NCBI GenBank assembly: GCA_947381965.1
Contig: CANCXX010000046.1
Span: 1 to 33,632 of the forward strand
Length of the DNA: 33,632 nucleotides
From: an uncultured bacterium
GTDB taxonomy: Bacteria > Bacillota > Clostridia > Lachnospirales > Lachnospiraceae
Direction of reading: 5' to 3'
Made by a program: the position numbers and the translations under genes. The notes beneath the pieces are model-generated. The model was not told the DNA's origin, ran no database searches, and was given only the letters and a program-made list of their open reading frames with translations. This document shows positions 1,753 through 32,043 of this stretch, one piece after another. Numbering within the stretch: position 1 is the stretch's first letter; the number at the start of each line of letters is the position of its first letter.

Positions 1753-1881
1753 GCAAGTACCCGGTTTGTTAAAATATTAGTATCCATTAAGGCGTTGGTA
1801 GTGATATTGCACAAAAGGAGCTTTTAATTTTCTGTTTAAGCAGTATTGCAGGGATATCCTGCGGTATGCGTGGGGATTAAG

Positions 1882-3366: not shown

Positions 3367-3386
3367 AGAAGAAAGAGAGGGAGAAA

Positions 3387-4346: not shown

Positions 4347-4360
4347 GGAGGTGAAGAAAA

Positions 4361-5302: not shown

Positions 5303-5327
5303 ACTGCTGCAGCCTGTGGCTGCAGTT
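5302..5327 (+). promoter_or_regulatory. Intercistronic stem-loop before binding-protein gene
   Basis: CTGCAGCC (5307-5314) and GGCTGCAG (5318-5325) form a perfect 8-bp stem with a 3-nt loop. It follows the permease stop and lacks a U-tract, so it is probably not a terminator. It may act as an mRNA processing or stabilising element that raises binding-protein expression relative to the permeases. Confidence 0.5.
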
Positions 5328-5353
5328 AATAAGATAAAGAAAGGGGTTTTAAT

Positions 5354-10259: not shown

Positions 10260-10330
10260 ATGCGGAAATCTAGAAAAACGAATATTTGTTCGAGAAAATA
10301 TTTCTTAATTTTGCTGCACGATTTCCGCAT
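10260..10330. repeat. Inverted repeat enclosing an SOS-box-like palindrome
   Basis: The 478-bp gap between the divergent methylase and ABC genes (10145-10622) is AT-rich and carries no convincing gene. It contains perfect 11-bp arms ATGCGGAAATC (10260-10270) and GATTTCCGCAT (10320-10330). Between them is CGAATATTTGTTCG (10279-10292), which resembles the Gram-positive LexA box (CGAAC-N4-GTTCG type) with two mismatches. This could be a cruciform or a regulatory site for the restriction genes. No clear promoter could be assigned on either strand. Confidence 0.4.
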
Positions 10331-10622
10331 GGATACTTTATATTTGAAGTATATCTGTTTTTATTTTAAAAAGCAATAAACAGTCAGGAACAGGCTTGAA
10401 CAAAATTCGGAAAAGTAAAAAGGATATTGCCGGTATGGGAAAACCATAGAACCAAAGGCTGCTTTTCTTTTTTACGTCTAATATAGTATATTGGGGGCAA
10501 GATTCAAGGAGCTTTTGTTTTCTCATTCTAATATATGTTTACTCATGGAAAGGAAAAATAAACTATGATATTATTAACTTAGTAATGCAAAATTTATATT
10601 AAACCAAAGATGCGGGGGCGGA

Positions 10623-16843: not shown

Positions 16844-16864
16844 TTTGTTAACAAATGGTATAAT
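16844..16864 (+). promoter_or_regulatory. Palindromic operator inside promoter of the hydrolase operon
   Basis: The perfect 12-bp palindrome TTTGTTAACAAA (16844-16855) is followed 3 bp later by TATAAT (16859-16864). The palindrome therefore sits in the spacer between a weak -35 and the -10, an ideal place for a repressor. The related sequence at 28325-28334 precedes the second transport operon. The divergently encoded LacI-family protein is the obvious candidate binder. Confidence 0.55.
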
Positions 16865-16970: not shown

Positions 16971-19361
16971 TTGGAAAGTTTGCAGGAAAAAATACTGGCC
17001 TATTATAAGGAAGGAATGCCTTTTAGCGACTGCGGGGATGTGGAGGAGTCCGTGCTGGAAAAGTTCGCGGAACATGCCGTATTTTTAAGGGAAAATGTAA
17101 AGTGGTGCAAAGCGTTGCCAGAAGATATTTTTATGGAAAATGTGGCTGCTTACCGGATTAACAATGAAAGGATTGAAGATTGCCGAAAATGGTTTTTTGG
17201 GATGGTATGGCCGGAAATCATGTATATGGAAGCAAAGGAAGCCATAGGCGTGGTAAACATGTGGTGTGCCCGGCAGGTAACATATCATCAGGCAAGCGCC
17301 CGGACAGCGAATGCGGTTACTGCCTATAAAAGCGGGCTGGGCAGATGCGGGGAAGAGTCTGTTTTTACAGTAACAGTTCTAAGAAGCGTGGGACTTCCGG
17401 CAAGGCAGGTATACGCCCCCTGGTGGTCCCACTGTGATGACAATCATGCCTGGGTGGAGGTATGGTGCGATGGAAAGTGGCATTATCTGGGCGCCTGTGA
17501 GCCGGAACCGGTTTTGGACAGGGGCTGGTTTTCCAATGCGGCTTCAAGGGCAATGCTGGTACATGCCCGGTGCTTTGGAGCGCCAAAAGGGGAGCAGACG
17601 GTAATTTCCAGGCGAGGGTGCGCTACCTTTTTAAATGTTACGGACCATTACGCAGATACTGTGCAGATGACCCTGGAGATTGTGGATGAGCAGGAAAATC
17701 CGGTAAGAGATGCCAGAGTACATTTGGAGGTGCCTAACTATGGCGTTTACCAGAAGGTGGCAACCCTTATCACAGACGGGGAAGGGAAGATAAGTATCCG
17801 TATGGGAAAAGGAGAAGCTATGGCTGCCTGCAGCTATCAGGGAGAGTATCATTTTTGCCGTTTTCTGACAGAAGAGGGACACAAAAGGCTTCGCCTTGCA
17901 AAGGCCCGGCCGGGGGAAGCAATGGAGTATGAGTTTATTGCACCTGACGGAAGGGGTATTGGAGAGCCGGATCCGGATCCTGTCTGGGAGGAAAAGTTAG
18001 CCCAGGCAAAACAGAGCCGGCAGAAACGTCTTTTAGGTTATTTTGATGAAAAGAGAGCCGCAGCTTTCCCCGAAGCAGAGGATATGCTGAAAAAGGCAGC
18101 GGGAAACTTTGATCAGGTGATTGCTTTTCTGGAAACGGATGAGAATCCTTACCGGATGGCCATGCTTAAAGAGCTGGAAGAAAAGGATTTGTATGACTTA
18201 AGGGCGGAAATTCTGGAGGAACATTTACAGGAGGCGGCGCCTTTTGCAGAAAAGTATTCCAAAGACATTTTTACCCGGTATCTGTTAAATCCCCGTGTGG
18301 AAAATGAGGAGCTTAGCGCTTACCGGAAGGGAATAAAAGAATATCTGGGGGATAAAAAAGAAGAATTTTGGGAAAATCCGGCCCATATATGGACCGGACT
18401 GTGCAGACAGATGGCGGACGCCGGAGAGATGGATTACCGGACCTTGCAGATTACGCCTCTTAGCGCGCTAAAGATGCAGGTGGTAAACGAGGAAAGCAGA
18501 AAGCTGCTGTTTGTGGCCGTCTGCAGAAGTCTTGGAGTTCCTGCGAGAGTGAATCCGGTCTGCGGCCTGCCGGAGTATTACAGGGAAGGCGCCTTCCATA
18601 TGGTGGAGGAAAAGGAGGAGCCTTCTGTCCTGGGGAAACTGCTTCTTGTTTTTAAGGAGAAGAGAGACTGGAAGTATTTCAGTACCTGGACTTTGTCTTT
18701 GTGGACCGGAGATGACTGGAAGGTGCTGGGGCTGATGGATACCCCGGTTTGTGAAAACAGATTAAGTCTTGATGTGGCGCCGGGGCTGTACCGGCTGCTT
18801 ACCATTGTGCGGGAAAGCTCCGGAAACCAGTTAGTCAGGGAAATGTTTTTCCAGGTAACAGGACAGGAAGAGACGCAGGTGGAAGTAAGGCAGCATGCAA
18901 TGGCGGCAGGCCTTAAGGAGAAAAAAGTTCCGCTGCCCGATATTATGGTAAGGACAGATAAGGGTGAGGAATCTCTTGGAGAGCACTGTCAGGGGCAGAA
19001 GAGTATCTGCATCTGGCTGGAAGAGGGAAGAGAACCTTCAGAGCATATTTTAAACGAACTGCTGGAGAGCGGCAGCGAGATTGCGCATCTGCAGGGCAGG
19101 ATATTCCTGCTTAAGAGGGAACCTGTAAAGAAGGACGGCACGTTGGAGAAAGTAATAAACACTTTGCCGGAAATTCAGGTTTGGGATGCGACCCGATGGG
19201 AAGACTCTGTTCATGTGGCCGGAGAGATGGAAATGGAGAAGAACAAGTATCCATTAGCAGTGGCACGGGACGAAGAAGGAAACGGATTGTATGCAACAGC
19301 AGGATACAATGTAGGCTCCGTACAGCTTTTAATCGAAAGCATAGAGGCGGAACAGGATTAA
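16971..19361 (+). CDS. Transglutaminase-fold multidomain protein (PNGase-like core)
   Basis: This 796-residue protein starts at TTG, supported by AAGGGGGAGAT 8 nt upstream. Residues ~90-200 form a transglutaminase/PNGase-type cysteine core: Cys126 in GRCGEESVF, His159 in NHAWVEVW, and LGACEPEPVLDRGWF (173-187), which aligns with the third catalytic region although the exact Asp is shifted or replaced. A beta-sandwich-like part follows (about 215-300), then a helical region, a second degenerate transglutaminase-like segment (SRKLLFVAVCRSLGVPARVN) and a C-terminal thioredoxin-like portion. There is no signal peptide. PNGase (NGLY1/Png1) belongs to this superfamily and also shows GRCGE and a CE motif after the His. 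Beside fucosidase, mannosidase, GH18 and aminopeptidase, release of glycan from Asn or peptide is an attractive role; it is inferred. Confidence 0.8.
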   Translation: MESLQEKILAYYKEGMPFSDCGDVEESVLEKFAEHAVFLRENVKWCKALPEDIFMENVAAYRINNERIEDCRKWFFGMVWPEIMYMEAKEAIGVVNMWCARQVTYHQASARTANAVTAYKSGLGRCGEESVFTVTVLRSVGLPARQVYAPWWSHCDDNHAWVEVWCDGKWHYLGACEPEPVLDRGWFSNAASRAMLVHARCFGAPKGEQTVISRRGCATFLNVTDHYADTVQMTLEIVDEQENPVRDARVHLEVPNYGVYQKVATLITDGEGKISIRMGKGEAMAACSYQGEYHFCRFLTEEGHKRLRLAKARPGEAMEYEFIAPDGRGIGEPDPDPVWEEKLAQAKQSRQKRLLGYFDEKRAAAFPEAEDMLKKAAGNFDQVIAFLETDENPYRMAMLKELEEKDLYDLRAEILEEHLQEAAPFAEKYSKDIFTRYLLNPRVENEELSAYRKGIKEYLGDKKEEFWENPAHIWTGLCRQMADAGEMDYRTLQITPLSALKMQVVNEESRKLLFVAVCRSLGVPARVNPVCGLPEYYREGAFHMVEEKEEPSVLGKLLLVFKEKRDWKYFSTWTLSLWTGDDWKVLGLMDTPVCENRLSLDVAPGLYRLLTIVRESSGNQLVREMFFQVTGQEETQVEVRQHAMAAGLKEKKVPLPDIMVRTDKGEESLGEHCQGQKSICIWLEEGREPSEHILNELLESGSEIAHLQGRIFLLKREPVKKDGTLEKVINTLPEIQVWDATRWEDSVHVAGEMEMEKNKYPLAVARDEEGNGLYATAGYNVGSVQLLIESIEAEQD

Positions 19362-19397
19362 AATCAATAATAATTAATATCAGAGGTGCATAAGGAA

Positions 19398-20819
19398 ATG
19401 GAGTATAAGAAATCCAGAATGAATGCGGTTACAATTACCCTGCAGCAGCCGGTATGGGGCGATAAGGTAAGCTTTTACAGGCAGGGAGAACAAGAAACAA
19501 AGGTTTTTGGCGGCAAGTATCTTGAAAAATGGGGAATGTTGCAGGAAAATGGCGATTTTCACCTGATGGTGGGAATGGGCGACGGGAAGGAACCGGAAAG
19601 CGGTATGGTCAGGGAAATCTGCGCCACAGCCGCAAAGGAAATGAAAGAGCGGAAAATACAAAACTTTTCCTGTGATTTAAAACCCATTCTTGCCCTTTTT
19701 GGAGAGGAAGCTTTGCAGGAAGCGGCGGAAGGCCTTGTTCTGGGGCTTTATGCCATGGAGAAATTTTCAGGCGGGGAAGAAAAAAACTGGCAGGTGACAC
19801 TTACGAATGTGCCTGAAAATGAAAAAAATCTACGTCTTGTGGAGGAAGGAAGGACTCTTGCCGGAGCGGTTATTTTTGCGCGTGATATGGTGAACCGCCC
19901 TGCAAATTATCTGCGTCCTCTGGACTTTGCAGGTACGGCAAAAGCTTTAATGGAAGGTTTGCCGGTGGAAGTGGAAATTCTGGATATTGCACAGATTAGA
20001 GAACAGAAAATGGGAGCTTTTTTAGCAGTTGGGGAGAGCAGTCTCTATCCTCCCTGCATGCTTGTTTTGCGCTATCTGCCTGATAAAGAGGGAGCAATTA
20101 CAGCGTTTGTAGGCAAGGGGGTTATGTGTGATACCGGAGGGTACTGTTTAAAAAACAGTAAATTTATGGAAGGAATTAAGGGAGACATGGCAGGCGGCGC
20201 TGCGGTTGTAGGGGCTGTTTATGCAATGGCCCAAAATGGCGCTGGCAGTAATGTAGTGGGTATTGTTCCCATGTGTGAAAACCGGATTTCTCCGGGAAGC
20301 ATGATTCCGGGAGATGTGGTTACTGCAGGAAATGGCATGACCATTGAAATTTTAAATACGGATGCGGAAGGCAGACTGATTCTGGCGGATGCCGTAAGTT
20401 ATGCGGTCAGAAAAGAAGGGGCGGAACGTGTGGTGGATATTGCAACATTAACTGGCGCCATGGGACAGATGCTGGGGAACAGCATTACCGGACTTTTGAC
20501 AGATAACGATGAGTTTTGCCAGGCGTTTATGAGCGCGGCGGGAAGCGTTGGCGAGCGGTATCACAGACTGCCCTGGTACAAGGAACACGAAGAAATGATA
20601 AACAGCGACGTGGCGGATATTAAAAACAGCGGCGCGCCTTTTTGTCCAAGTATTACGGCAGGGTTGTTTATCCGGCGGTTTGCGGAAGGAAAGCCATGGA
20701 TACACCTTGACATTGCAGGAAGCGCCTGTGCAGGGAAACCGGTGTTTGCCTATCAGGAAGGGGGCGCTACCGGAGTCGGGGTAATGACTTTGTATGCTTT
20801 AGGTAAGGGACAGAAATAG
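19398..20819 (+). CDS. M17 leucyl aminopeptidase-family protein
   Basis: This 473-residue protein belongs to the M17 cytosol aminopeptidases, two-metal enzymes that remove N-terminal residues from peptides. The hallmark NTDAEGRL is present, along with the metal and substrate region VGKGVMCDTGGYCLK and KGDMAGGAA. Length is normal for the family. I chose the ATG at 19398 because AGAGGTG lies 9 nt upstream; an in-frame GTG at 19386 is less likely. It is 36 nt after the transglutaminase-fold gene and 41 nt before GH18, so all are probably co-transcribed. In this setting it could trim the peptide part of imported glycopeptides or glycoasparagine, which is inference. The divergence around CDTGGYCLK versus the usual FDSGG suggests a specialised member. 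Confidence 0.9.
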   Translation: MEYKKSRMNAVTITLQQPVWGDKVSFYRQGEQETKVFGGKYLEKWGMLQENGDFHLMVGMGDGKEPESGMVREICATAAKEMKERKIQNFSCDLKPILALFGEEALQEAAEGLVLGLYAMEKFSGGEEKNWQVTLTNVPENEKNLRLVEEGRTLAGAVIFARDMVNRPANYLRPLDFAGTAKALMEGLPVEVEILDIAQIREQKMGAFLAVGESSLYPPCMLVLRYLPDKEGAITAFVGKGVMCDTGGYCLKNSKFMEGIKGDMAGGAAVVGAVYAMAQNGAGSNVVGIVPMCENRISPGSMIPGDVVTAGNGMTIEILNTDAEGRLILADAVSYAVRKEGAERVVDIATLTGAMGQMLGNSITGLLTDNDEFCQAFMSAAGSVGERYHRLPWYKEHEEMINSDVADIKNSGAPFCPSITAGLFIRRFAEGKPWIHLDIAGSACAGKPVFAYQEGGATGVGVMTLYALGKGQK

Positions 20820-20860
20820 CTGTTATATGAAAAGAAGCGGACGGGAAAGGAAGGAAAAAG

Positions 20861-21880
20861 ATGGCATTATTAATTGAATATGTATCAGAAAGAGCAATTG
20901 GAGATGTAAAGGAAGAAGAGGCCCGCTGTATGGATGTGGTTAACATTGCATTTGGACATGTGGAGAATGGAAGGGTAGTCTGGAACCATCCGGAGTGCAA
21001 GGAGGGACTTAGGCGGCTGCGCAGCATTCATCCGGGAATGAAGATTCTTTTATCTGTTGGGGGATGGAGTGCAGGAGGATTTTCTGAGATTGCCTTTACA
21101 AAGGAAGGACGGCAGCAGTTTGCAAAGGACAGCCTTGCCCTGGTGGAAGAATATGAGCTGGATGGGATTGATATTGACTGGGAGTATCCTGGCATTGCGG
21201 CAGCAGGCATAGGGGCTGATAAGGCGGATAAGGAGAATTTTACCCTGCTTCTTAAAACTCTGCGGGAGGTCTTTGAGGACAGGCAGGCAGGACGTTATAT
21301 GCTTACCATTGCCGCAGGAGGGGACAGTTATTATGTGCGCAATACCCAGATGGACGAAGCTGTGAAATACCTGGATTATGTGCAGATTATGACTTATGAT
21401 TTAAGAGGTGGCTTCCAGACCCTTACCGGACATCACACCAGCCTTTACGCCAACCAGTTTGACCTTTTTGACGCCTGCACGGACAAGGCGGTGAAGGTTT
21501 ATATGGAAGCAGGCGTTCCTGCGGAAAAGCTTGTTATTGGCGGGGCCTTTTACAGCAGAAAGTGGGAGCAGGTACCGGATGTGGATCATGGACTTTGCCA
21601 GATGGCCCAGACAGTGGGCGGCTATGGAAAAGAGTACGGTGAGCTGGTGGAGAGCTATATTAACAAAAATGGTTTTGTAAGGTATTGGGACGAAGAGGCA
21701 AAGGCTCCCTGGCTTTTTGATGGAAGTACTTTTATCAGCTATGATGACGAACAGTCTCTTGGATGTAAGATTGAGTATTTGAAGGAAAAAGGACTTGCAG
21801 GAATCATGTGCTGGGAGTATATTGGGGACACGACCCATACGCTGACAACCTTTATGAGAAAAGAGCTGGATCGTGCCTGA
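20861..21880 (+). CDS. GH18 glycosidase (chitinase/ENGase-like), first copy
   Basis: This 339-residue single-domain GH18 enzyme carries the DxxDxDxE motif as DGIDIDWE, with catalytic Glu108. Other GH18 elements are LLSVGGWSAGG (about 63-73), the MTYD strand and a C-terminal GIMCWEYIGD. The enzymes use the substrate N-acetyl group to cleave beta-1,4 bonds after GlcNAc, either in chitin or between the two core GlcNAc residues of N-glycans. There is no signal peptide, so the substrate must be imported. A good AAGGAAGG ribosome binding site precedes the ATG. It is followed by the GH29 gene in the same operon and has a diverged paralog at 23681. Endo-N-acetylglucosaminidase versus chitobiosidase activity cannot be decided here. 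Confidence 0.93.
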   Translation: MALLIEYVSERAIGDVKEEEARCMDVVNIAFGHVENGRVVWNHPECKEGLRRLRSIHPGMKILLSVGGWSAGGFSEIAFTKEGRQQFAKDSLALVEEYELDGIDIDWEYPGIAAAGIGADKADKENFTLLLKTLREVFEDRQAGRYMLTIAAGGDSYYVRNTQMDEAVKYLDYVQIMTYDLRGGFQTLTGHHTSLYANQFDLFDACTDKAVKVYMEAGVPAEKLVIGGAFYSRKWEQVPDVDHGLCQMAQTVGGYGKEYGELVESYINKNGFVRYWDEEAKAPWLFDGSTFISYDDEQSLGCKIEYLKEKGLAGIMCWEYIGDTTHTLTTFMRKELDRA

Positions 21881-21931
21881 GAGGAAAAATTAATTTTCAG
21901 CATAGGGGCCGGAGCGGGATAGGATAGCATA

Positions 21932-21961
21932 GCTATGGAATAGCAATGGCAAAGCCATAGC
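21932..21961 (+). repeat. Short hairpin-forming repeats between GH18 and GH29
   Basis: GCTATGG (21932-21938) pairs with CCATAGC (21955-21961), and the inner ATGGC-aaa-GCCAT (21946-21958) forms an alternative stem. ATAGC/ATAGCAATG units repeat around it. No U-tract follows, so this is more likely an mRNA element than a terminator. Confidence 0.4.
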
Positions 21962-21987
21962 AATAATCCGGCGGAAAGGATAAGAAA

Positions 21988-23415
21988 ATGGAAGAGGAAT
22001 TAATCACAGAAGGCAGTGGGGAAGAAACTGCCGCGAAAGGGGCTTTGGAGGAAGCGTCGGAAGAGGAAATGGTGCAGGAGGGCGTTCATAATTACAGCAC
22101 CGCTGACCGGTATGTGTGGCCCACAGATCCCAAAGTGTTAAAAAAGCTGGAATGGTTTCAGGATCAGAAGCTTGGGCTTATGATGCACTGGGGACATTAC
22201 AGCCAGCTTGGAATTGTGGAATCCTGGGCCTTGTCAGATGAGGATTCCTGCTGGTCAAGAACAGGAATTGACTGGGAAATAACAGGAGAAGATTTCAAAA
22301 AGCAGTATTTTGATTTAAACAAGACCTTTAATCCGGTGCGCTTTGAGCCGGAAAAATGGGCGGACATTGCTAAGGAAGCGGGAACGAAATACCTGCTTTT
22401 TACCACCAAGCATCATGATGGATTTTGTATGTGGGACAGCAAATATTCCGATTACAAGGTAACAGCGCCTGACTGTCCTTTTCATACCAACCGGTATGCG
22501 GATATCTGCGCCCATTTGTTTGAAGCCTTCCGAAAACGGGAGCTGGGTATAATCACTTATTTTTCCAAGGCGGACTGGCATGTGGACAGCTATTGGAGTG
22601 ACAAGTATGACAGGGGAAGCTACCAGCACAGAGGACCCTCCTATGATCCTAAGGAATATCCCCAAGAGTGGGAGCGGTTTGTGGAATTTACCCAGAACCA
22701 GATTGTGGAGTTGGGAAGCAGGTATGGCAGACTGGACGGTATGTGGTTTGACGCAGGGTGGGTTTGCGCCCATAACGGTCAGGATATCCGTCTTGGGGAG
22801 GTAATAGAACGGGTAAGAAAATTCCAGCCCGGAATGCTGTGTGCGGACAGAACGGTTGGGGGACCTTATGAAAATTATGTGACGCCGGAACAGTGCGTAC
22901 CGGATGAACCTTTAGGGATACCTTGGGAGAGCTGTATTACGCTGGGAACTTCTTTTTCCTTTGCGTACGAAGATACGTACAAAAGTCCCCGTGAGGTCAT
23001 CTGCCTGTTGGTAGATATTGTGGCAAAGGGAGGCAACCTGGCCATCAATGTAGGACCCCAGCCCAACGGATGTCTGCCGAAAGGCGCGGTAAAAAGCTTA
23101 AAAGGAATGGGAGAATGGCTGAAGATTTATGGGGAGGCAATTTACGGCACAAGAGTGTGCGCGCCTTACAAAAAAGACGGCATTGCCTTTACCCGGAAAG
23201 GAAAAACTGTTTATGCTATCCAAACATTTGCCGACGCTGGGGCGCCGGTACCGGAAGAAGTGTGGATTCCTTATGAAGGCAAGGTCGTAGAAGTGACAGA
23301 ACTGTCAGGAGGCAGAAGCCTGTCCTTTGAACAGAAAGACAAAGGCCTGCTTATAAAGGATGGGCCTTATGAAGGAAAAGAAGCGCCTATTGGAAGGGTA
23401 TACTGCCTCAAATAG
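21988..23415 (+). CDS. GH29 alpha-L-fucosidase
   Basis: This 475-residue protein is a GH29 alpha-L-fucosidase, a retaining enzyme that removes alpha-linked fucose. Family motifs include LGLMMHWGHYS (62-72), KHHDGFCMWDSKYSDY (141-156), ITYFSKADWH (189-198) and WFDAGW with the predicted nucleophile Asp255 (253-258). Residues 1-36 are an unusually acidic, low-complexity extension without a counterpart in the core family; the protein lacks a signal peptide. AAAGG precedes the ATG. The gene is the last of the operon starting at 16971 and is followed by a strong terminator. In an N-glycan setting it would take off core or antennal fucose before chitobiose cleavage; linkage specificity is not readable from sequence. 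Confidence 0.94.
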   Translation: MEEELITEGSGEETAAKGALEEASEEEMVQEGVHNYSTADRYVWPTDPKVLKKLEWFQDQKLGLMMHWGHYSQLGIVESWALSDEDSCWSRTGIDWEITGEDFKKQYFDLNKTFNPVRFEPEKWADIAKEAGTKYLLFTTKHHDGFCMWDSKYSDYKVTAPDCPFHTNRYADICAHLFEAFRKRELGIITYFSKADWHVDSYWSDKYDRGSYQHRGPSYDPKEYPQEWERFVEFTQNQIVELGSRYGRLDGMWFDAGWVCAHNGQDIRLGEVIERVRKFQPGMLCADRTVGGPYENYVTPEQCVPDEPLGIPWESCITLGTSFSFAYEDTYKSPREVICLLVDIVAKGGNLAINVGPQPNGCLPKGAVKSLKGMGEWLKIYGEAIYGTRVCAPYKKDGIAFTRKGKTVYAIQTFADAGAPVPEEVWIPYEGKVVEVTELSGGRSLSFEQKDKGLLIKDGPYEGKEAPIGRVYCLK

Positions 23416-23433
23416 ATTTTAAACAGAACAGGG

Positions 23434-23481
23434 AAAAGCCTTGGGATTCCGTGGAAAATAACGGAGTCACAGGGCTTTTTT
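23434..23481 (+). terminator. Terminator of the hydrolase operon
   Basis: AAAAGCCTTG-GATTCCGT pairs with ACGGAGTC-CAGGGCTTTT across an 8-nt loop and is followed by six T. It lies 19 nt after the fucosidase stop. Confidence 0.9.
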
Positions 23482-23509
23482 CAAAGGGGAGTTAAAATAT
23501 TTATGACAT

Positions 23510-23573
23510 CCTCTAAAATTGTATATTTATCCCTCAAAATTACATTTAGGGCGCAAAGGGGATGTAGTATAAT
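23510..23573 (+). promoter_or_regulatory. Direct repeats and promoter of second GH18 gene
   Basis: CCTCTAAAATT (23510-23520) and CCTCAAAATT (23532-23541) are direct repeats 22 bp apart, extended by similar TATTTA/CATTTA tails. They end next to a weak -35 region and a TATAAT at 23568-23573. Direct repeats two turns apart beside a poor -35 are typical of AraC-family activation, and an AraC-family gene lies just downstream of this GH18. Confidence 0.5.
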
Positions 23574-23680
23574 GAAGCCGTTCCAGACAATAAAGCCAAA
23601 GACTTTGGGCGGTATATGAAGCAGGCTTATGAAGGCTGCAACTAAGTTAACTGATTTTTGTAAGGAGGGTAAGCTGGGGA

Positions 23681-24700
23681 ATGAAAAAAATATTGGCATA
23701 TGTGGGAGAAGATTCAATCGTAACTGAAGAACAGGCAAAGATTCTTACACACATTCATGTGGCTTTTGGACATCTGACTGTGGATGGAAAGCTTTTAAGC
23801 AGAAATCATCCCTTTTTAAGCCAGGTAAAACAAATCCGGGAGCAGAATCCGGATATCAGGGTTATTTTGTCAATTATACCAAAAGAGCCGGATGCTTTTA
23901 CTGTTGTAAGCGCATCCGGGGAGCTGCGTGACGTTGTAACGCAGGAATGCAGACGGCTGGTGGAAGAAGAGGGATTTGACGGCATTGATTTTGACTGGGA
24001 ATATCCCTGTGTACCCTCAAACGGCATGAACTGCTCTCCGGAGGATAAGCACAATTTTACCCTCCTCTGTCAGGCGGCCAGGAAAGGACTGGATATGGCC
24101 GGAGGCGGCAGTCTTTCCATTGCGGCAGGGGCGGATGTTTATTACATAGAGAGCGTGGAGGCAAAGGAGCTTGCAAAGGTTTTGGATTATGTGTGCCTGA
24201 TGACATATGACTTAAAGTGCGGGTTCCATGCACTGACGGGACACCACACAGCGCTTTATTCGTCCACCGGGGATATTTTCAGGAACAGCTGCGACCAGGC
24301 CCTGGGGCTTTTTGAAAGCGCAGGATTTCCCAGGCAAAAACTGCTGATGGGAGCCGCTTTTTATTCAAGAATATGGGAAGAGGTGACGGATCGCTATCAT
24401 GGATTTTTGCAGTATACCAAAAGCGGCGGCGGCTATGGTCCAAATTATGACAAGCTGGCGGCGGAATATATTGATAAAAACGGCTATGTCCGTTATTGGG
24501 ATGATGAGGCAAAGGCGCCGTTTTTGTTTAACGGTTCCAGTTTTATCAGCTATGATGATGAAGAATCCCTGTATCATAAATGTGCTTATGTCAAAAGAGA
24601 GGGAATCGGCGGGATTTTTTACTGGTGCCACAGCGGTGATACCAGCGGCGTCCTTTTACGGAAAATCGGGCAGGAAATCCGGCAGCCTGACAGGGACTAA
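23681..24700 (+). CDS. GH18 glycosidase, second copy
   Basis: This 339-residue GH18 paralog has the catalytic motif DGIDFDWE with Glu107, an MTYD strand, GAAFYSRIWEEV and a YVRYWDDEAKAPFLF stretch almost shared with the first copy. The usual SVGGW loop is replaced by LSIIPKEPDAF (about 63-73), a region that borders the substrate cleft, so specificity may differ from the first copy. There is no signal peptide. It has its own promoter after the terminator at 23481 and ends convergently with the AraC gene: the two stop codons overlap in CTAA at 24697-24700. The ribosome binding site is AAGGAGGGTAAGC, with slightly long spacing. Two GH18 genes in one locus may act on differently decorated chitobiose cores; this is inference. 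Confidence 0.92.
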   Translation: MKKILAYVGEDSIVTEEQAKILTHIHVAFGHLTVDGKLLSRNHPFLSQVKQIREQNPDIRVILSIIPKEPDAFTVVSASGELRDVVTQECRRLVEEEGFDGIDFDWEYPCVPSNGMNCSPEDKHNFTLLCQAARKGLDMAGGGSLSIAAGADVYYIESVEAKELAKVLDYVCLMTYDLKCGFHALTGHHTALYSSTGDIFRNSCDQALGLFESAGFPRQKLLMGAAFYSRIWEEVTDRYHGFLQYTKSGGGYGPNYDKLAAEYIDKNGYVRYWDDEAKAPFLFNGSSFISYDDEESLYHKCAYVKREGIGGIFYWCHSGDTSGVLLRKIGQEIRQPDRD

Positions 24701-25530
24701 TCCCCCCAGGAGTATACCTTCCGGTATTCCGATGGGGTGAGGCCGGTGTGCTTTTTAAAAAAGTTGCAAAAATAAAACTGGCTGGAAAAGCCAAGGGCAT
24801 CTGCAATTTCGGATATGGGACATGTGGTGGTGGTCAGTTGTCTGATGGCATATTCTGTTTTTTTGCGTACAAGAAACTGGGCTGGGGTAAGGCCAAGTTG
24901 TTTTTGAAATAATTTTGTAAAGTGGCTGGGGTGGTAGCCGGCAATCCGGGCCATTTCCTGTACGGTAATCATCTGGTGGAGGTTTGCCTCCGCGTAGGAG
25001 ACAGCTTGGTTTAATGGGGAATCAAAGTCCGACTTTATCAGGGATAGCTGGCTGGAAGGGCAGCAGTCCAGAAAATATACCAGAAGATTTAACATATACT
25101 GCTGCATCTTTATGGCGCCTGTCAGGTTTTTGTCTGTCAAAGCCCCAATCATTTTTTCAAACAGGCAGGCGGCGGTTTCCGGGTTTCTGGCGTTTACACA
25201 TAATGGAGTATGGATAAGGTCAAAGAGCTCTGTTCCATGGCAGCTGATGTTGAAATGGCAGTAATATTTTTTATAGGGATGGCAGGCGTCTGTGAAAAAA
25301 GTCTGGGTAGTGCGGGCAGGAAGCAGATACAGCTGGCCTTTGGAGGGATGCAGCGTGGTGCCGTCAACAATGATAGTGCCGGTCCCTTCCAGTATCAGGC
25401 CAATGCTGCTAAAGGGCGGAAAGGTGTGGTCCCCTCTCCAGTTTCCGTCACAGGTAAGAAGATGGGCGCGTTCTAAGCGGACAGAAAGACCGTGTAATTG
25501 ATTTTGCAGGATAAAGGATGTTTCGTTCAT
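24697..25530 (-). CDS. AraC-family regulator with cupin sensor domain
   Basis: This ~277-residue regulator has an N-terminal cupin-type sensing domain (about residues 10-140, including GTGTIIVDGTTLHPSKGQLY and LLPARTTQTFF) and a C-terminal AraC double helix-turn-helix (about 175-275) with IAGYHPSHFTKLFQ and ALGFSSQFYFCNFFKK. It lacks a receiver domain, so it probably binds a sugar directly. I start at the ATG ending at 25530, preceded by GGAGG at good distance, rather than at 25548. It is divergent from the GH38 gene and convergent with GH18, and the phased repeats at 23510 are a candidate binding site. The target set is inferred from position. Confidence 0.92.
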   Translation of the reverse strand: MNETSFILQNQLHGLSVRLERAHLLTCDGNWRGDHTFPPFSSIGLILEGTGTIIVDGTTLHPSKGQLYLLPARTTQTFFTDACHPYKKYYCHFNISCHGTELFDLIHTPLCVNARNPETAACLFEKMIGALTDKNLTGAIKMQQYMLNLLVYFLDCCPSSQLSLIKSDFDSPLNQAVSYAEANLHQMITVQEMARIAGYHPSHFTKLFQKQLGLTPAQFLVRKKTEYAIRQLTTTTCPISEIADALGFSSQFYFCNFFKKHTGLTPSEYRKVYSWGD

Positions 25531-25656
25531 GGGATCCTCCGTTGGCATAGATTAGGATTGGGTATGCAGGCATTATAACATGGAGCCATCCGGAAGTCCA
25601 ATGGGCAAAAAACAAGGATACAAAAAATAATTTTTAGATTTTTTGAGGAGCTTAAA

Positions 25657-28047
25657 ATGGGAAAAAAAATAAAAACAGTTTACATTGTGCATCATTCTCA
25701 CACAGATGTGGGATACACAGATTTGCAGGAACAGGTGGTTTACAATCAGGTTAACAACATCAGGAATGTCATTTCCATTATAAAGAAAGGATATGAGGAA
25801 AACAGACCGGAGAAGGATTTTAAGTGGAACTGTGAAACCTATTACTGTGTGGAACAGTTTTTAAGGTCTGCTTCAGAGAAAGAAAAAGAAGATTTTTTTG
25901 ATTTGGTAAAAAAGGGGAACATTGGCATTTCCGCCACATGGCTGAATTTTAATGATCTGGCAGATGTCGGGATGCTTGCGCAAAAGACGAAAGAGATGCA
26001 AGAGCTTTTTACCGGAAAAGACTGCCCGGTAAAAACTGCCATGAATGCGGATATCAATGGGATTTCCCTGGGAGCGCGGGATGTGCTGATTGAAAACGGA
26101 ATTGAGTTTTTATTTACCAATATCCATACCCATCATGGGATGTATCCTCTTTACCAGAATCAGAAGCCGTACTTTTGGGAAAATGAAAAAGGAGAGAGGC
26201 TTCTGGTATGGAACGGAGAACATTACAATCTGGGAAACGCTCTGGGGATTGTGTTTAACCGTAACCTGAACTTTATGACGGAAAACTATTTTGGGAAGGG
26301 TGGGGCTAAAGCTCCTTTGGAGACTTTGCATAAAAATCTGGGAGAGAGTATTGAAGAGTATGAAAAAAGCGGCTATCCATATGATTTTTATATTACCAGC
26401 GTCAGCGGCGTCTTTTCAGACAATGCGCCTGCCAATCCGGGAATTGTTGCGACGGTCAATGCTTTTAACAGGGAATACGGGGAAGAAGTGACTTTGCGGA
26501 TGGTAACGCTTAAGGAGCTTTATGAGGAGATAAAGGAAAAAACAGCGGACGCCCCCGCCTGCCGCGGCGCAATGAACGACTGGTGGGGAAACGGCGTAGG
26601 TTCCACACCTTATGCGGTAAAGCATTACAAGGAGGCGCTACGGCTTTCCCATATCTGTGACCGCCTGGAAGAAAAAACAGGGGTCCGCAATCAGCCGCTT
26701 GCGCAGGACGCATGTGAAAATGCGCTTTTGTATGCGGAACATACCTGGGGACATTCCTCCACCATTACCAATCCCTATGACACACTGGTGACAAATCTGG
26801 ACATCCGTAAAACCGGCTATGCTTCCAAGGCCCATGAAGCAGGGGCAATGCGGAAAAGTGAGCAGTGCCATCTTCTGGGGGATATTCTGCGGTATTACAA
26901 TTCCCAGGGGCAGGTAAAAGCGGTTTCCTTAAGCAGGCAAAAAAGAACGCTTCCGGTGGAGTTTTATGTGGAAACTCTAAAACTGCCCAATGTCAGGATT
27001 ATAGATTTGAAAGACCGGAAAGAGCTTCCCGTCCAGCTTTCCAGCCATCCAAGAGGAGTGATGGTAAGCTTCCAGACAGAATTTGAAGCCGGGGAGGAAA
27101 AGCTTTTTTCCTATGAGGAGATACCGGCGCCGGATCAAAAGCTATATACCCGGACGGCCTGGGTGGGTGCGGAACGAGTACGGGATATTGTAAATGATTA
27201 TGACACGGAATCTTATAAGCTGCCTTATGGGATGGAAAATGAATGGTTTCGCATTGGTTATAAAATTGGGGAGGGCATAACCACCTTTTACCATAAAAAG
27301 AAGGAAAAAGAGCTGTTAAGGGATGGGCTGGAGCGGTTTTTCACACCCATATACGAATGCACCCAAATCCGTAAGGGCGTTTATGAAGAGAGAAGGCTTC
27401 TTGGGCGCAATGTCAGGGGGCTTCACGGAAAGCAGTATCAGGGAGATTTGAAAGCAATTCATATTCTGGATCATGGGCCGGTTTTTGACAGGGTGGAGCT
27501 GGAATTTGCGCTGGAAGGAACTTATCACTGCAGTGTAATTATCCGAATGTTCAGGAAGCTGCCTAAAATAGATTTTACCTGTCGGATTGCAAAGACTTTA
27601 AGCGAGGATATCGAAAGCGTATATCTTCCCCTGGCGCTGGATTTACCGGAGGATTCCGTTTATATTCAAAATGGCGGCGTTTCCATGCGGCCTGGCGTTG
27701 ACCAGCTTCCAGGCAGCAATATGGAGTACTATATTGCGGATCAGGGGCTTTTATATCAGGGAGAAAAAGAAGGGATTCTAATTAATACTTTTGATACGCC
27801 GCTGCTTTATATGGGGCAGATGGAGCATCACCCGATTAAGCTTTGCGACAATAAGGAAGAAAACAATCACCGGCCAGTATACAGCTGGATTATGAATAAT
27901 ACCTGGGAAACCAACTTTAAGATGGACTTGTCGGGATTCGGGGAATTTGTTTATTCGCTGGAGCTTTCAGACGGAAACCGGGCGAAGGAAAATCTGGACC
28001 GTCTGTCAGATAATGATTTGGGGACAGTAGCGTTTATTGTGAAATAA
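25657..28047 (+). CDS. GH38-type alpha-mannosidase (DUF5054-like)
   Basis: This 796-residue protein looks like a GH38 alpha-mannosidase of the bacterial DUF5054-like branch. Near the N-terminus VHHSHTDVGYTD carries the zinc-binding His15 and Asp17 (equivalent to the HxD of PHSHNDPGW in GH38). Asp132 in MNADINGIS is the likely nucleophile and metal ligand, and FTNIHTHHG follows. The remaining ~500 residues are the helical and beta domains usual in GH38. There is no signal peptide, so it should act on imported mannosides. GAGGAG precedes the ATG. The gene has its own upstream region, divergent from the AraC regulator, and ends at a terminator. Removal of mannose from trimmed N-glycan cores would fit the neighbours; exact linkage specificity is not deducible. 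Confidence 0.85.
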   Translation: MGKKIKTVYIVHHSHTDVGYTDLQEQVVYNQVNNIRNVISIIKKGYEENRPEKDFKWNCETYYCVEQFLRSASEKEKEDFFDLVKKGNIGISATWLNFNDLADVGMLAQKTKEMQELFTGKDCPVKTAMNADINGISLGARDVLIENGIEFLFTNIHTHHGMYPLYQNQKPYFWENEKGERLLVWNGEHYNLGNALGIVFNRNLNFMTENYFGKGGAKAPLETLHKNLGESIEEYEKSGYPYDFYITSVSGVFSDNAPANPGIVATVNAFNREYGEEVTLRMVTLKELYEEIKEKTADAPACRGAMNDWWGNGVGSTPYAVKHYKEALRLSHICDRLEEKTGVRNQPLAQDACENALLYAEHTWGHSSTITNPYDTLVTNLDIRKTGYASKAHEAGAMRKSEQCHLLGDILRYYNSQGQVKAVSLSRQKRTLPVEFYVETLKLPNVRIIDLKDRKELPVQLSSHPRGVMVSFQTEFEAGEEKLFSYEEIPAPDQKLYTRTAWVGAERVRDIVNDYDTESYKLPYGMENEWFRIGYKIGEGITTFYHKKKEKELLRDGLERFFTPIYECTQIRKGVYEERRLLGRNVRGLHGKQYQGDLKAIHILDHGPVFDRVELEFALEGTYHCSVIIRMFRKLPKIDFTCRIAKTLSEDIESVYLPLALDLPEDSVYIQNGGVSMRPGVDQLPGSNMEYYIADQGLLYQGEKEGILINTFDTPLLYMGQMEHHPIKLCDNKEENNHRPVYSWIMNNTWETNFKMDLSGFGEFVYSLELSDGNRAKENLDRLSDNDLGTVAFIVK

Positions 28048-28060
28048 TTTATGCACATAA

Positions 28061-28103
28061 GGCGGACATTTGCAGCAAATATGCGGAATGTCCGCTGTTT
28101 TTA
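28061..28103 (+). terminator. Terminator after mannosidase gene
   Basis: GCGGACATT (28062-28070) pairs with AATGTCCGC (28087-28095), followed by TGTTTTTA, 14 nt after the mannosidase stop. Confidence 0.88.
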
Positions 28104-28276
28104 TGGGTGAAAATATATTTACGGAAATTTTAAAGTTAACAAAATTTAACATAATATACAGTACCTAAAGGTGATATAGCTCATAAAAACGGGGAACCTT
28201 TGGACAAATTGCTAAAGAGTTATGGCGCGTTTCATAAAAAAGAATAAAAAATGATAAAAATTCTCGAAAAAGACTC

Positions 28277-28334
28277 TTTCAAATTTAGAGAAATGTAGTA
28301 TGCTAATTAACATAAGGCAAACGTTTGTTAACAA
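28277..28334 (+). promoter_or_regulatory. Promoter and LacI-type operator of transport operon 2
   Basis: The 339-bp gap after the mannosidase holds the terminator, an AT-rich stretch, then a possible promoter (TTTCAA 28277-28282, 16 bp, TATGCT 28299-28304). Just downstream is GCAAACGTTTG, containing the perfect palindrome CAAACGTTTG (28318-28327), a classic LacI/PurR-type core with central CG, overlapping TTGTTAACAA (28325-28334), which matches the palindrome upstream of the hydrolase operon. Joint control by the LacI-family regulator is likely. The promoter hexamers are weak; the palindromes are clear. Confidence 0.5.
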
Positions 28335-28386
28335 CTATTAACTCAATGCAGAAATGCAGACACAAAATGAAAAGAGGGGTGAAAAC

Positions 28387-29331
28387 ATGGCAACAAAAGT
28401 TAACAAGGGAGGGAGTGCCAAGAAAAAGGGTAATTTCCTGCTAACGCTGAAAAAAGACTGGTCGTTATGGATGTTTTGCATTCCGGGAATCATACTGACG
28501 TTTATCTTCAGTTATATTCCTATGTATGGCGTGCAAATTGCATTCAGGAGGTTTAATGCCAAGGACGGTATCTGGGGCAGTAAATGGGTCGGCCTGCAGT
28601 ATTTTGAGCGTTTCATCAATTCCCCGTATTTCGGACGGACCATCAGCAATACGCTGATCCTTAGTTTATACGGGTTAATTGTATCTTTCCCAATCCCGAT
28701 TATCCTGGCGCTTATGCTTAATTCCTTCCGGCACAAAAGGTACAGGAAGGTAATTCAGACAGTTACCTATGCACCAAACTTCATTTCCACCATCGTTATG
28801 TGTGGTATGCTGCTCCTGTTCCTGTCTCCTACCGTAGGTATTATCAACACGGTAATTAAAATGTTTGGCGGAGAAGCAGTCAACTTTATGGCGAAGAAAG
28901 AATATTGGCGGCATCTGTATGTATGGTCTGGTGTATGGCAGGGAATGGGCTGGAGTTCCGTTATTTATTTCGCGGCATTATCCGGTATCAGTCCGGAGCT
29001 TCATGAGGCGGCCAAGTGCGACGGCGCTACCAAGTTCCAGTTGATTAAGTACATAGACTTTCCTTCCATCCTTCCGACAGCTACAATCCTGCTGATTATG
29101 AACTGCGGTAGTATTCTCTCTATCGGATTTGAAAAGGCATTTGCGCTGCAGAACAACCTGAACCTTTCCGTTTCAGAAATCATTTCTACCTATGTGTACA
29201 AGGTTGGTCTGATTGACAACAATATGTCCTACTCTGCAGCCATCGGCTTGTTCAACACGATAGTCAACATGATCATGCTGATTACCGTTAACAAGATTTC
29301 GGATAAGATGTCCGGAAACAGCTTATTCTAG
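28387..29331 (+). CDS. LplB-type sugar ABC transporter permease (operon 2)
   Basis: This 314-residue membrane protein is the first permease of a second CUT1 importer. It has about six membrane segments, an LplB-like start (DWSLWMFCIPGIILTFIFSY), FSYIPMYGVQIAFRRF, and the EAA loop LHEAAKCDGATKFQLIKYI. I use the ATG at 28387 because AGGGGTGA is just upstream; the frame opens earlier at 28354 without a binding site. It precedes the second permease by 17 nt. It resembles the LplB of operon 1 in family but not closely in sequence, so the two importers probably have different substrates. No ATPase gene is linked. Confidence 0.94.
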   Translation: MATKVNKGGSAKKKGNFLLTLKKDWSLWMFCIPGIILTFIFSYIPMYGVQIAFRRFNAKDGIWGSKWVGLQYFERFINSPYFGRTISNTLILSLYGLIVSFPIPIILALMLNSFRHKRYRKVIQTVTYAPNFISTIVMCGMLLLFLSPTVGIINTVIKMFGGEAVNFMAKKEYWRHLYVWSGVWQGMGWSSVIYFAALSGISPELHEAAKCDGATKFQLIKYIDFPSILPTATILLIMNCGSILSIGFEKAFALQNNLNLSVSEIISTYVYKVGLIDNNMSYSAAIGLFNTIVNMIMLITVNKISDKMSGNSLF

Positions 29332-29348
29332 GACAGGGGGGATAGAAC

Positions 29349-30278
29349 ATGAAAAAAAATAATGAAGTTGAAGAGAGAACAAGTATCAAACGCTGTAAAG
29401 AGGACGTGATATTTGATACGATTCTGTTCGTTGTCCTGACCATAATTTTGCTGATTGTAGCATATCCGCTGTGGTGGGTTATCATATCCTCCATCAGTGA
29501 TCCCAAAGCCGTATCCAGCGGTCTGGTTATCTGGCATCCTATCGGATTTAACTTAAGGGGATATTCAGAAGTTTTTGAAGATGACTCTATCGTGCGAAGC
29601 TTCTTAAACTCCATTTTGTATACGGTATGCGGTGTTTTGGTAAACTTGGCGGTTACGCTTCCTACCGCTTATGCGCTTTCCAGGGATAAGTTTTCCGGAA
29701 AGAAGATTGTTACACTGTTTTATGTGGTAACTATGTTCTTCAGCGGCGGTCTGATTCCTACCTATTTGGTTGTCAGGGATGTAGGCCTTCTGGATTCCAT
29801 GTGGGCGTTAATCCTTCCCGGATGTTTAAGCGTTTATAACATGATTGTTGCAAGGACATTCTTTAAGTCCAATATCTCTGAAGAATTATATGAAGCGGCA
29901 GAAATTGACGGCTGTACCCAGGGAAGATTTTTCTTCCAGATTGCACTGCCCTTATCAGGCGCTATTACAGCAATCATGGTACTGTATTATGGTGTAGGCC
30001 ACTGGAATTCCTACTTCTCCGCATTGATTTATTTGTCTGACAAGGATAAATATCCTCTGCAGCTTGTACTTAGAAGTATCCTGATTTCCAATGAGGCAGC
30101 CCTGCAGCAGGCGGCAACTACGGCAGAGGCAAGGGCGGCCCTTAACGCAAAGAAGGAATTAATAGAACTTATGAAGTACTCCCTGATTATTATCAGTAGT
30201 ATTCCGGTTCTGGTTCTGTACCCTTTTATCCAGAAGCATTTTGTAAAGGGTGTAATGATTGGTTCCGTAAAGGGATGA
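29349..30278 (+). CDS. LplC-type sugar ABC transporter permease (operon 2)
   Basis: This 309-residue protein is the second permease, with six predicted membrane segments, AYPLWWVIISSISDP near the N-terminus, the EAA loop (LYEAAEIDGCTQGRFFFQI) and the LplC-type tail KGVMIGSVKG. A CAGGGGGGAT ribosome binding site lies between the permease genes. It is followed by a 109-bp gap containing a hairpin, then the binding-protein gene, the same order as in other LplBCA-type operons. Confidence 0.94.
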   Translation: MKKNNEVEERTSIKRCKEDVIFDTILFVVLTIILLIVAYPLWWVIISSISDPKAVSSGLVIWHPIGFNLRGYSEVFEDDSIVRSFLNSILYTVCGVLVNLAVTLPTAYALSRDKFSGKKIVTLFYVVTMFFSGGLIPTYLVVRDVGLLDSMWALILPGCLSVYNMIVARTFFKSNISEELYEAAEIDGCTQGRFFFQIALPLSGAITAIMVLYYGVGHWNSYFSALIYLSDKDKYPLQLVLRSILISNEAALQQAATTAEARAALNAKKELIELMKYSLIIISSIPVLVLYPFIQKHFVKGVMIGSVKG

Positions 30279-30297
30279 TTTATTCCCACGGCGGCTT

Positions 30298-30317
30298 TTG
30301 TCAGCTTACGCTGACAA
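30298..30317 (+). promoter_or_regulatory. Intercistronic stem-loop before binding-protein gene (operon 2)
   Basis: TTGTCAGC (30298-30305) and GCTGACAA (30310-30317) form a perfect 8-bp stem with a 4-nt loop, followed by another GC-rich pairing region around 30335-30358. No U-tract follows. Position and form parallel the stem-loop at 5302 in operon 1. Confidence 0.5.
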
Positions 30318-30387
30318 GGCAAACTGCAATGGTATCGCTGCGGCGGACGGGCGCCGCTTGATATAAAAAATTAAAGGAGATGAATGT

Positions 30388-32043
30388 ATGAAAAAGAGAT
30401 TAGTAGCAATGCTTTTGGCAACTGTTATGGTCTGCTCAGCACTGACAGGCTGCGGTTCAAAAGATGGCGGCGGATCTTCAACATCAGCGGAAGATCTGGA
30501 CAACAAAGAGGAATATGTTCCGGCAGAAGTAGACGCTGACGGAAAAGTGGACGGCATTATGTATAAAGAAGGACTGCCTTTGGTAGATGAAGGCGCATAC
30601 ACCTTCTCTATTTTCTGCGACGATTCCACCTCAACCGGTGAGTTTTATATGCTCAATGAGTTTGAGAAGCAGACCAATGTAAAAGTAGATTTAAGATACT
30701 TCCCTTATGAAAATGCAACAGAAAGAATGAACCTTGACTTAAACTCCGGCGACTATGCGGATGTTATCGGCGGATGGATTTTAAGTGACAGTATGATTTT
30801 GACTTATGGTGTGGAACAGGGGGTATTCATTCCTCTTGAGGATATTTTTGCAGAGTATTGTCCGAATATTTCCGCAATTTTGGATCTGCCTGATGTAAGA
30901 GAAAAAATGACGGCTCCTGACGGACATATCTATACGATCCCTTATGTATGTGATGATGTTACCGTGAATTACAGCCCCTGGATTAACACACGCTGGCTGG
31001 AAAATGTAAATATGGAAATCCCTAAAACCACAGAAGAGTTTGAAGCGGTACTGAAAGCCTTCAAAGAGCAGGATGCAAATGGAAATGGGGATCCTAATGA
31101 TGAGATTCCATTCTCCACAGACCCTAACAATAAGTATCTGCAGGCAATGACAGGTTACTTTGGGGTTCCCATGGATAAGTATGGTTTTGCCCTTGTAGAT
31201 GAAAAGCCGGTATTTGCTGCAACCAGTGCAAAGTACAGAGAATTCTTAAGCTGGTTTAACAAGCTGTATGAGCAGGGATTGGTTGACCCTGAAATCTTTA
31301 CACAGGACAGCGCAACTTGGGAAGGAAAAGGAAACAGAGATATGTACGGCGTATCTATCGCTTATGGTTCCAATGAGTTTTCAGGAATTGAACAGACAAC
31401 CACAAAGCCTGAATTTGATCCCCTTCCGGTATTAAATGCTGACAACGGCGGTATCTGGCTTAGAGCTACACCAGGTAACTCTGTGTACAGAGCACAGGCA
31501 GTTATTACAGATAATGCAGAACATCCTGAAATTATTGCACGCTGGTTTGACAATGCGTTTGAACTTGAGAACGGTATTGGCTGTAACAGAGGTCCTGTAG
31601 GCGTAGTGGTATTCCCTGAAGACAATGATATGTACCGTGTAATTGATACCAAAACACTGGACAGCGAAACTCAGGAGAAATTAAGCTGGAGCAACTTATG
31701 GCCTCAGTCTCTTCCTAAGTTCCTGCCTATGAAGTTTGGTAAAGAGCATTTTATTGAAGACAATCCGCTTTACGATGAGAAGAAGAATCTGGAAGAAACT
31801 TATGAACCGTATCTGACCAAGGATGTAATTCCTTCTTTCTGGGTTGAGCCTGATATGGTGGAAGAATATTCTGAAATTGCACAGTCTATTAATGACTACT
31901 TCAATGAACAGCAGGCATTGTTTATTTCCGGCGAACAGGATGTAGATGATGATTCTGTTTGGGAAACATATTGCAGCGGTCTTGAAGCAATGGGACTTTC
32001 CACATATCTTGAAGTACGTGGTGTAACAGAGGTTCTTGAGTAA
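30388..32043 (+). CDS. LplA-type sugar ABC transporter solute-binding lipoprotein
   Basis: This 551-residue lipoprotein is the substrate-binding subunit of the second importer. Residues 1-22 are a lipoprotein signal with lipobox ALTGC and lipidated Cys22, then a short Gly/Ser linker. The domain includes a calcium-loop-like motif (DANGNGDPNDEIPF, about residues 229-242) seen in LplA-type binding proteins, and many aromatic residues suited to oligosaccharide stacking. AAAGGAGATG upstream is a strong ribosome binding site. It is followed by a terminator. Its placement after the mannosidase and behind a LacI-like operator suggests that it brings in the oligosaccharide or glycopeptide that the cytoplasmic hydrolases degrade; the ligand is inferred. 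Confidence 0.94.
   Translation: MKKRLVAMLLATVMVCSALTGCGSKDGGGSSTSAEDLDNKEEYVPAEVDADGKVDGIMYKEGLPLVDEGAYTFSIFCDDSTSTGEFYMLNEFEKQTNVKVDLRYFPYENATERMNLDLNSGDYADVIGGWILSDSMILTYGVEQGVFIPLEDIFAEYCPNISAILDLPDVREKMTAPDGHIYTIPYVCDDVTVNYSPWINTRWLENVNMEIPKTTEEFEAVLKAFKEQDANGNGDPNDEIPFSTDPNNKYLQAMTGYFGVPMDKYGFALVDEKPVFAATSAKYREFLSWFNKLYEQGLVDPEIFTQDSATWEGKGNRDMYGVSIAYGSNEFSGIEQTTTKPEFDPLPVLNADNGGIWLRATPGNSVYRAQAVITDNAEHPEIIARWFDNAFELENGIGCNRGPVGVVVFPEDNDMYRVIDTKTLDSETQEKLSWSNLWPQSLPKFLPMKFGKEHFIEDNPLYDEKKNLEETYEPYLTKDVIPSFWVEPDMVEEYSEIAQSINDYFNEQQALFISGEQDVDDDSVWETYCSGLEAMGLSTYLEVRGVTEVLE

Follow-up and report, generated by a model that had tools for sequence, protein, structure and literature searches.

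Gene content of the locus

The window, 33,632 nucleotides long, is the complete contig C46 of a draft genome (4.3 Mb, 96.7% complete, 7.3% contamination) from an uncultured, gut-type Lachnospiraceae bacterium. It contains a cluster of glycosidase, peptidase and importer genes around a gene for a transglutaminase (TGase)-fold protein, which we analysed as a candidate locus for the uptake and degradation of N-glycans. The open reading frames (ORFs) and Pfam matches agreed with the gene list and coordinates of an earlier sequence-only reading of this DNA. All families named there (two GH18, GH29, a GH38-type enzyme, TGase-fold, M17, LacI, cupin-AraC and CUT1) were recovered with Pfam, and the GH38 assignment was strengthened by profile comparison. 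A gene missing from that list, encoding a CBM9-like protein, proved informative.

On the forward strand, the TGase-fold protein (16971–19361; Transglut_core, 2.3e-18), a putative peptide:N-glycanase (PNGase)-like amidase for the bond between N-acetylglucosamine (GlcNAc) and asparagine, is followed by a leucyl-type aminopeptidase of family M17 (19386–20819; Peptidase_M17, 2.1e-104), GH18 a (20861–21880; GH18, 7.4e-68; motif DGIDIDWE in the translation), a GH29 alpha-L-fucosidase (21988–23415; Alpha_L_fucos, 6.2e-84) and GH18 b (23681–24700; GH18, 7.1e-54). After an AraC regulator with a cupin-type sensor on the reverse strand (24697–25548; HTH_AraC, HTH_18, AraC_binding), the forward strand continues with a divergent GH38-type alpha-mannosidase (25657–28047; a weak Glyco_hydro_38N match, 2.5e-9), two CUT1-type permeases (permease 1, 28354–29331; permease 2, 29349–30278; both BPD_transp_1) and a lipoprotein solute-binding protein (SBP; 30388–32043; SBP_bac_8) with a hydrophobic N-terminus and a lipobox in its translation. 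On the other side of the TGase gene, the reverse strand encodes the CBM9-like protein (15673–16719; CBM9_1, 2.7e-8) and a LacI-family regulator (14593–15657; LacI and Peripla_BP_3). Enzymes for alpha-mannose, fucose and GlcNAc-GlcNAc, assigned by family only, are all present together with an importer. The cluster contained no importer ATPase gene, and the locus no beta-mannoside-cleaving enzyme.

Export signals were judged by hydrophobicity alone, as the maximum Kyte-Doolittle value over 15 residues. This value ranged from -0.27 to 0.98 for the seven enzymes and the CBM9-like protein, none of which has a hydrophobic N-terminus or leader, and was 2.53 for the SBP, the only soluble protein of the locus with an exported look. 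The enzymes had previously been described as lacking signal peptides, which held for each of them.

The divergent intergenic region between the CBM9 and TGase genes contains the palindrome TTTGTTAACAAA (16844–16855, no strand), a weak candidate for a regulator site. A copy with one mismatch lies ahead of the importer (28324–28335). With up to two mismatches there were 7 matches versus 3.4 expected, a number reached in 4 of 100 shuffles, and no exact copy occurred in 15 scanned relative or own loci. The pattern CAAACGTTTG was rejected as a shared operator, with 11 matches, below the 18 expected.

Elsewhere in the window, a second CUT1-type system (24–6862) comes with a pair of DUF3502 binding proteins and an AraC-domain response regulator. 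Near the right contig end (32203–33597) are a short response regulator (154 amino acids) and a transposase-like ORF (DDE_Tnp_1, E 3.4e-4, below the cut-off).

The transglutaminase-fold protein

The Pfam scan detected no domain besides Transglut_core in the TGase-fold protein. A profile of its TGase domain, built from 42 relatives, had its best match in the Protein Data Bank (PDB) to 3isr, a putative cysteine protease (3e-5). Next came the mouse and yeast PNGases (2f4m, 1.1e-4; 3esw, 4.8e-4; 1x3w, 4.9e-4) and then an arylamine N-acetyltransferase (0.013), with true transglutaminases at 0.6 or worse. Among the residues common to the protein and the PNGases are GRCGE, H.W.E and a CE pair, and Cys126, His159 and Glu177 are invariant across the 42 TGase sequences. 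Judged by sequence, the protein is PNGase-like within its superfamily; that it acts as a GlcNAc-Asn amidase has, in our estimate, about even odds.

Neighbours of the TGase gene across relatives

The TGase-fold protein was detected at E ≤1e-3 in 16 of 98 relatives and at E ≤1e-40 in 47 of 397 family genomes, referred to as TGase-positive, with the host genome included in both numbers. Twelve families were scanned in 8 kb flanks of 57 TGase loci from 54 genomes, excluding the window. At least one of these families was present at 47 of the 57 loci, and a scanned glycosidase (GH29, GH18, GH20, GH38, GH3, GH125 or GH2) at 28. CutC was found at 28 loci, GH29 at 21 (23 genes), M17 at 13, GH18 at seven, CBM9, GH20, GH3 and M28 at six each, GH38 at five, an alpha/beta-hydrolase at four, and GH125 and GH2 at two each. 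If the 203 GH29 genes of the 54 genomes were evenly spread, 0.91 instead of 23 would be expected at these loci. The co-occurrence that the sequence-only reading had proposed to look for is conserved. Hydrophobic N-termini were absent from all TGase (57/57), GH29 (26/26), GH38 (10/10), GH125 (11/11) and GH20 (11/11) proteins of the relatives' loci, and from 8/9 GH18 and 7/8 GH3 proteins, the exported-looking ones being the GH18 of L032 and the GH3 of L041.

In a genome-wide search of every eighth genome that skipped TGase-positive ones, five of 42 TGase-negative genomes had CutC, as did five of six TGase-positive genomes added to the same search. Together with the 28 genomes that have CutC near TGase, at least 33 of the 54 genomes with TGase loci carry it, 20 of the others lying outside the genome-wide search. 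The order M17-CutC-TGase was seen in L004 and L005, and no such neighbours in L002 and L003. In the host genome, CutC is on another contig (C38), away from the locus.

Six loci (L045, L052, L053, L058, L066 and L071) shared an order in which a peptide-type-looking ABC importer, named by eye from its sequences, lies upstream of an optional GH29, an optional DeoR, CutC and TGase; an M28-type peptidase, scanned in one copy, follows in four of the six. This arrangement is perhaps a second, glycopeptide-specific type. In L038, a sulfatase (10279–11790, forward strand) lies near a CutC-TGase-GH29-M28 set. A related protein is encoded near TGase in four N-glycan-type loci (L062, 7635–8801, reverse strand; L065; L075; L076); the L062 copy had no Pfam match and appears alpha/beta-hydrolase-like by eye.

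The CBM9-like protein was found in 12 of the 397 family genomes, the host included, and all 12 were TGase-positive (p 2e-12). Its gene was located within 10 kb of TGase in nine of them, and in one of the nine (G039) the two were fused. In the remaining three it was near GH125 (G167, G463) or near GH20, GH3 and GH38 (G310). Relatives of the LacI regulator (43–46%) adjoin CBM9 in L026, L096 and L097. The CBM9-like profile matched the PDB xylanase chains 7nwn (9e-4) and 1i82 (0.015). We consider the protein a putative cytosolic glycan-binding partner of the TGase-fold protein.

Glycosylasparaginases of family PF01112, to which AsnA2 of Lactobacillus casei presumably belongs, had no match in the host genome (97% complete). 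As the missing amidase, the family was discarded: it occurred in 10 of the 397 genomes, one of the 47 TGase-positive and nine of the 350 TGase-negative ones. The two are thus not anticorrelated, and the counts point to no more than a rarity of PF01112 among these genomes. The PNGase F C-domain (PF09113) was detected in 0 of 54, a zero that does not show absence, as no control matched either.

Alternatively, the locus may degrade N-glycans or glycopeptides inside the cell with a TGase-fold protein that acts on peptides, as a cysteine peptidase or a peptide amidase of another type, and breaks down the peptide part together with M17, while a different enzyme cuts GlcNAc-Asn. The protease 3isr as top PDB match, M17 and M28 genes near 13 and six of the 57 TGase loci, and the peptide-type-looking importers ahead of TGase in six loci all speak for a peptidase. 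Three PNGases were significant, however, and true transglutaminases were not; the TGase gene is linked to GH29 and to the CBM9-like module, up to fusion with the latter; and PF01112 was not found in the genome to supply the other enzyme. On this balance a peptidase seems unlikely, though it deserves to be taken seriously.

N-glycan-core context in relatives

Genes of the N-glycan families GH125, GH38 and GH130 were associated with the locus genes in relatives. In G167 and G463, a single run contains relatives of permease 1 (64–65%), permease 2 (65–66%), the SBP (45%), GH18 a (58–59%) and the CBM9-like protein (53–59%) together with GH20, GH125 and GH2, and GH38 lies upstream in G463. The GH2 of G167, the only copy scanned, has mannosidase Ig domains and is of the beta-mannosidase type. 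The run of G192 comprises GH3, the permeases (77% and 73%), the SBP (69%), GH29, GH18 a (54%) and TGase, with CBM9, LacI, GH38, GH130 and GH20 on the far side of GH3. In G418, CutC, GH29 (74%), the SBP (50%) and the permeases (74% and 69%) are followed by integrase genes, beyond which lie TGase, CBM9, GH18 a (62%), GH20, GH3 and GH38. A further version of the locus is present in G072. GH125 was found in 13 of 47 TGase-positive versus 25 of 350 TGase-negative genomes (p 1e-4).

In a quickly built TGase tree with some long branches, labelled from neighbourhood maps and counts, the eight tips with both N-glycan-core genes and GH29 required seven changes (shuffled mean 7.6). The N-glycan contexts are thus scattered over the tree and were not inherited as one block.

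These neighbourhoods bear on two other explanations. A CUT1 importer with two cytosolic GH18 enzymes could take up and degrade chitin or chitooligosaccharides, next to an unrelated fucosidase and mannosidase, and the nearest PDB structures of the two GH18 proteins are indeed those of a chitinase and of a GH18 N-acetylglucosaminidase. Yet relatives of the importer, GH18 and CBM9 accompany GH38, GH125, beta-mannosidase-type GH2, GH130 and GH20, and the linkage of GH29 with TGase is recurrent. With importer, GH18 and CBM9 surrounded by mannosidases in relatives, we regard a role in chitin use alone as very improbable.

The locus might instead be a row of independent units (TGase-M17-GH18-GH29, GH18 b, the GH38-like enzyme and the importer) with no one shared substrate. 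Intergenic gaps separate these units, and window-type GH38 genes are located away from TGase in G006, G039 and G052 or occur in genomes without a TGase match (G028, G001). On the other hand, the three genomes whose GH38 is most similar to this one (74, 69 and 54%) are all TGase-positive, and several relatives combine the importer with GH18, GH29, CBM9 and TGase, which makes unrelated neighbours a poor explanation.

Glycoside hydrolases of the locus and of the host genome

A profile of six window-type GH38 sequences retrieved eight PDB chains up to E 1, all eight named as GH38-type alpha-mannosidases, although no single match was significant (E 0.046–0.65). Compared profile to profile with a set of canonical GH38 proteins, six in all and drawn from relatives and the host genome, it aligned over 576 columns (97%; E 2.8e-11). 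The H-x-D, Asp and His positions conserved in the GH38 catalytic domain, which we take to form the metal site, are kept in the window protein. ROK kinase genes adjoin the window-type GH38 in G052, G028 and G001, with one weak, below-cut-off phosphomannose-isomerase match; no neighbour of either type was seen in G006 and G039. A ROK kinase beside this enzyme fits the release of free mannose.

Splitting of GlcNAc-GlcNAc is among the steps that the earlier reading envisaged for the enzymes together. GH18 a was nearest in the PDB to 5gzu, a chitinase, and 6inx, an N-acetylglucosaminidase, and matches to endoglycosidase models remained below the cut-offs (TIM-barrel_EndoS, 2.2e-4; Endoglyc_H, 7.5e-9 and 4.4e-4). 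Given this pattern, the two GH18 enzymes may split GlcNAc-GlcNAc once the glycan has been trimmed. Relatives of GH18 a belong to the N-glycan-core runs described above for G167 and G463, and in G072 (L028) one regulator gene stands between TGase and a relative of GH18 b (63%).

Outside the window, the host genome encodes a GH85 protein, its N-terminus of the lipoprotein type, next to a canonical GH38 on contig C27 (L091, 2107–8466). GH130 gave three matches, two strong ones among them, on C43 and C4; GH125 had no match. Extracellular release by the GH85 lipoprotein may coexist with an intracellular route: the organism may cut glycans at its surface and use the locus for material with the stub still attached. 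The all-intracellular route suggested by the sequence-only reading is therefore a property of this locus and not of the whole organism.

Proposed pathway

The gene content, the lack of export signals, the recurrent linkage of TGase with N-glycan enzymes and the profile similarity of TGase to PNGases were observed. From these we infer the substrate, the order of steps, the amidase activity, the role of the CBM9-like protein and the regulation. The SBP lipoprotein and the two permeases, by orthology, would import the substrate with an ATPase encoded elsewhere. Inside the cell, following the chemistry of their families, the GH38-type enzyme would remove alpha-mannose and GH29 fucose; the beta-mannoside step would be supplied from elsewhere, GH130 genes being present on other contigs. 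GH18 would then split GlcNAc-GlcNAc, and the TGase-fold protein may hydrolyse the GlcNAc-Asn amide to an Asp-peptide and 1-amino-GlcNAc, which would yield GlcNAc. The peptide part would be degraded by M17, the CBM9-like protein may serve as a glycan-binding helper in the cytosol, and the LacI and AraC regulators would control the units.

A cytosolic GH18 beside an importer makes most sense if substrates with two GlcNAc residues enter the cell, and GH18, TGase and M17 together favour a glyco-asparagine or glycopeptide. That the locus serves intracellular N-glycan or N-glycopeptide catabolism in the broad sense is likely. The specific reading, an import-and-degrade system for chitobiose-core N-glycans, most likely glyco-asparagine or short glycopeptides, in which the TGase-fold protein cuts GlcNAc-Asn, has a probability of roughly 0.58. 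Several observations weigh against it. In the TGase-fold protein the Cys-His-Asp triad is incomplete, an invariant Gly174 aligning with the PNGase Asp that we take to be catalytic; a putative cysteine protease is the best PDB match of its domain; and with the full-length profile the PNGases reach E 0.38–0.53. Both GH18 enzymes have chitinase and N-acetylglucosaminidase as nearest structures, the glycans set free by the lipoprotein GH85 of the host would carry a single GlcNAc, and CUT1 importers generally have sugars, and not peptides, as their known substrates. No scanned glycosidase lies within 8 kb at 29 of the 57 TGase loci, and at ten none of the twelve families does, at least four of these ten being on short contigs or contig ends. 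The dismantling of N-glycan cores and glycopeptides envisaged beforehand thus gained from the N-glycan-core neighbours in relatives, the leaderless enzymes and a plausible glycopeptide route, and is qualified by the half of the TGase loci that have no scanned glycosidase.

If true, a cytosolic TGase-fold counterpart of PNGases would reveal how bacteria complete the degradation of dietary and host glycoproteins at the remaining glycan-peptide stub, and would link sugar with peptide harvest. It would provide a bacterial comparison for NGLY1 and a testable role for CutC, and is possibly a new bacterial enzyme class within an otherwise known kind of locus.

Comparison with known systems

In the available text on the alf-2 system of Lactobacillus casei, Fuc-alpha-1,6-GlcNAc-Asn is catabolized intracellularly by import, a fucosidase and an amidase, after which 1-amino-GlcNAc breaks down spontaneously (PMC6960285). 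The likeness lies in an N-glycan core stub that is degraded inside the cell with asparagine still attached, the alf-2 system using a major facilitator superfamily (MFS) permease, AlfC and the glycosylasparaginase AsnA2 on a glycoamino acid (PMC6960285). The window locus differs in its CUT1 importer, GH18 and GH38 enzymes and TGase-fold protein, and in having no PF01112 match.

Bacterial N-glycan breakdown, as covered in the accessible part of a review, employs GH18 or GH85, GH29, GH38, GH125 and GH2 or GH130 on the N-glycan core, as does the gene set discussed here, and the prokaryotic PNGase, GH18 and GH85 enzymes commonly act outside the cell (PMC10154615). The words 'transglutaminase' and 'cytoplasm' do not occur in the review text available (PMC10154615). 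Streptococcus pneumoniae is likewise a Gram-positive bacterium with N-glycan degradation and transport, in the portion of the report available (PMC5215778); in contrast to the window locus, its first steps are trimming and release at the surface, as the same part of the review states (PMC10154615). Among the matches listed from open-licence literature, compared by title and abstract opening, none described an N-glycan locus of bacteria that includes a TGase-fold protein.

The eukaryotic NGLY1/Png1 is a cytosolic PNGase with a Cys-His-Asp triad, and NGLY1 is deficient in a human disorder, as stated in the text available (PMC9102325). It shares with the window protein a TGase-fold domain of significant profile similarity. 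The same text describes a glycan-binding beta-sandwich partner, PAW (PMC9102325), where the window locus has the CBM9-like protein, which is fused to TGase in G039. The window protein differs from NGLY1/Png1 in having no other Pfam domain, a Gly in place of the triad Asp, and a place in a nutrient locus and not in protein quality control. A speculative and rather doubtful extension would be that bacteria of this order possess a cytosolic de-N-glycosylation paralleling that of eukaryotes. In it, CutC, an orphan family also present in animals and a recurrent neighbour of TGase, might act on the glycosylamine set free or on GlcNAc-Asn, beside an altered-triad TGase-fold PNGase, GH38, and CBM9 replacing PAW.

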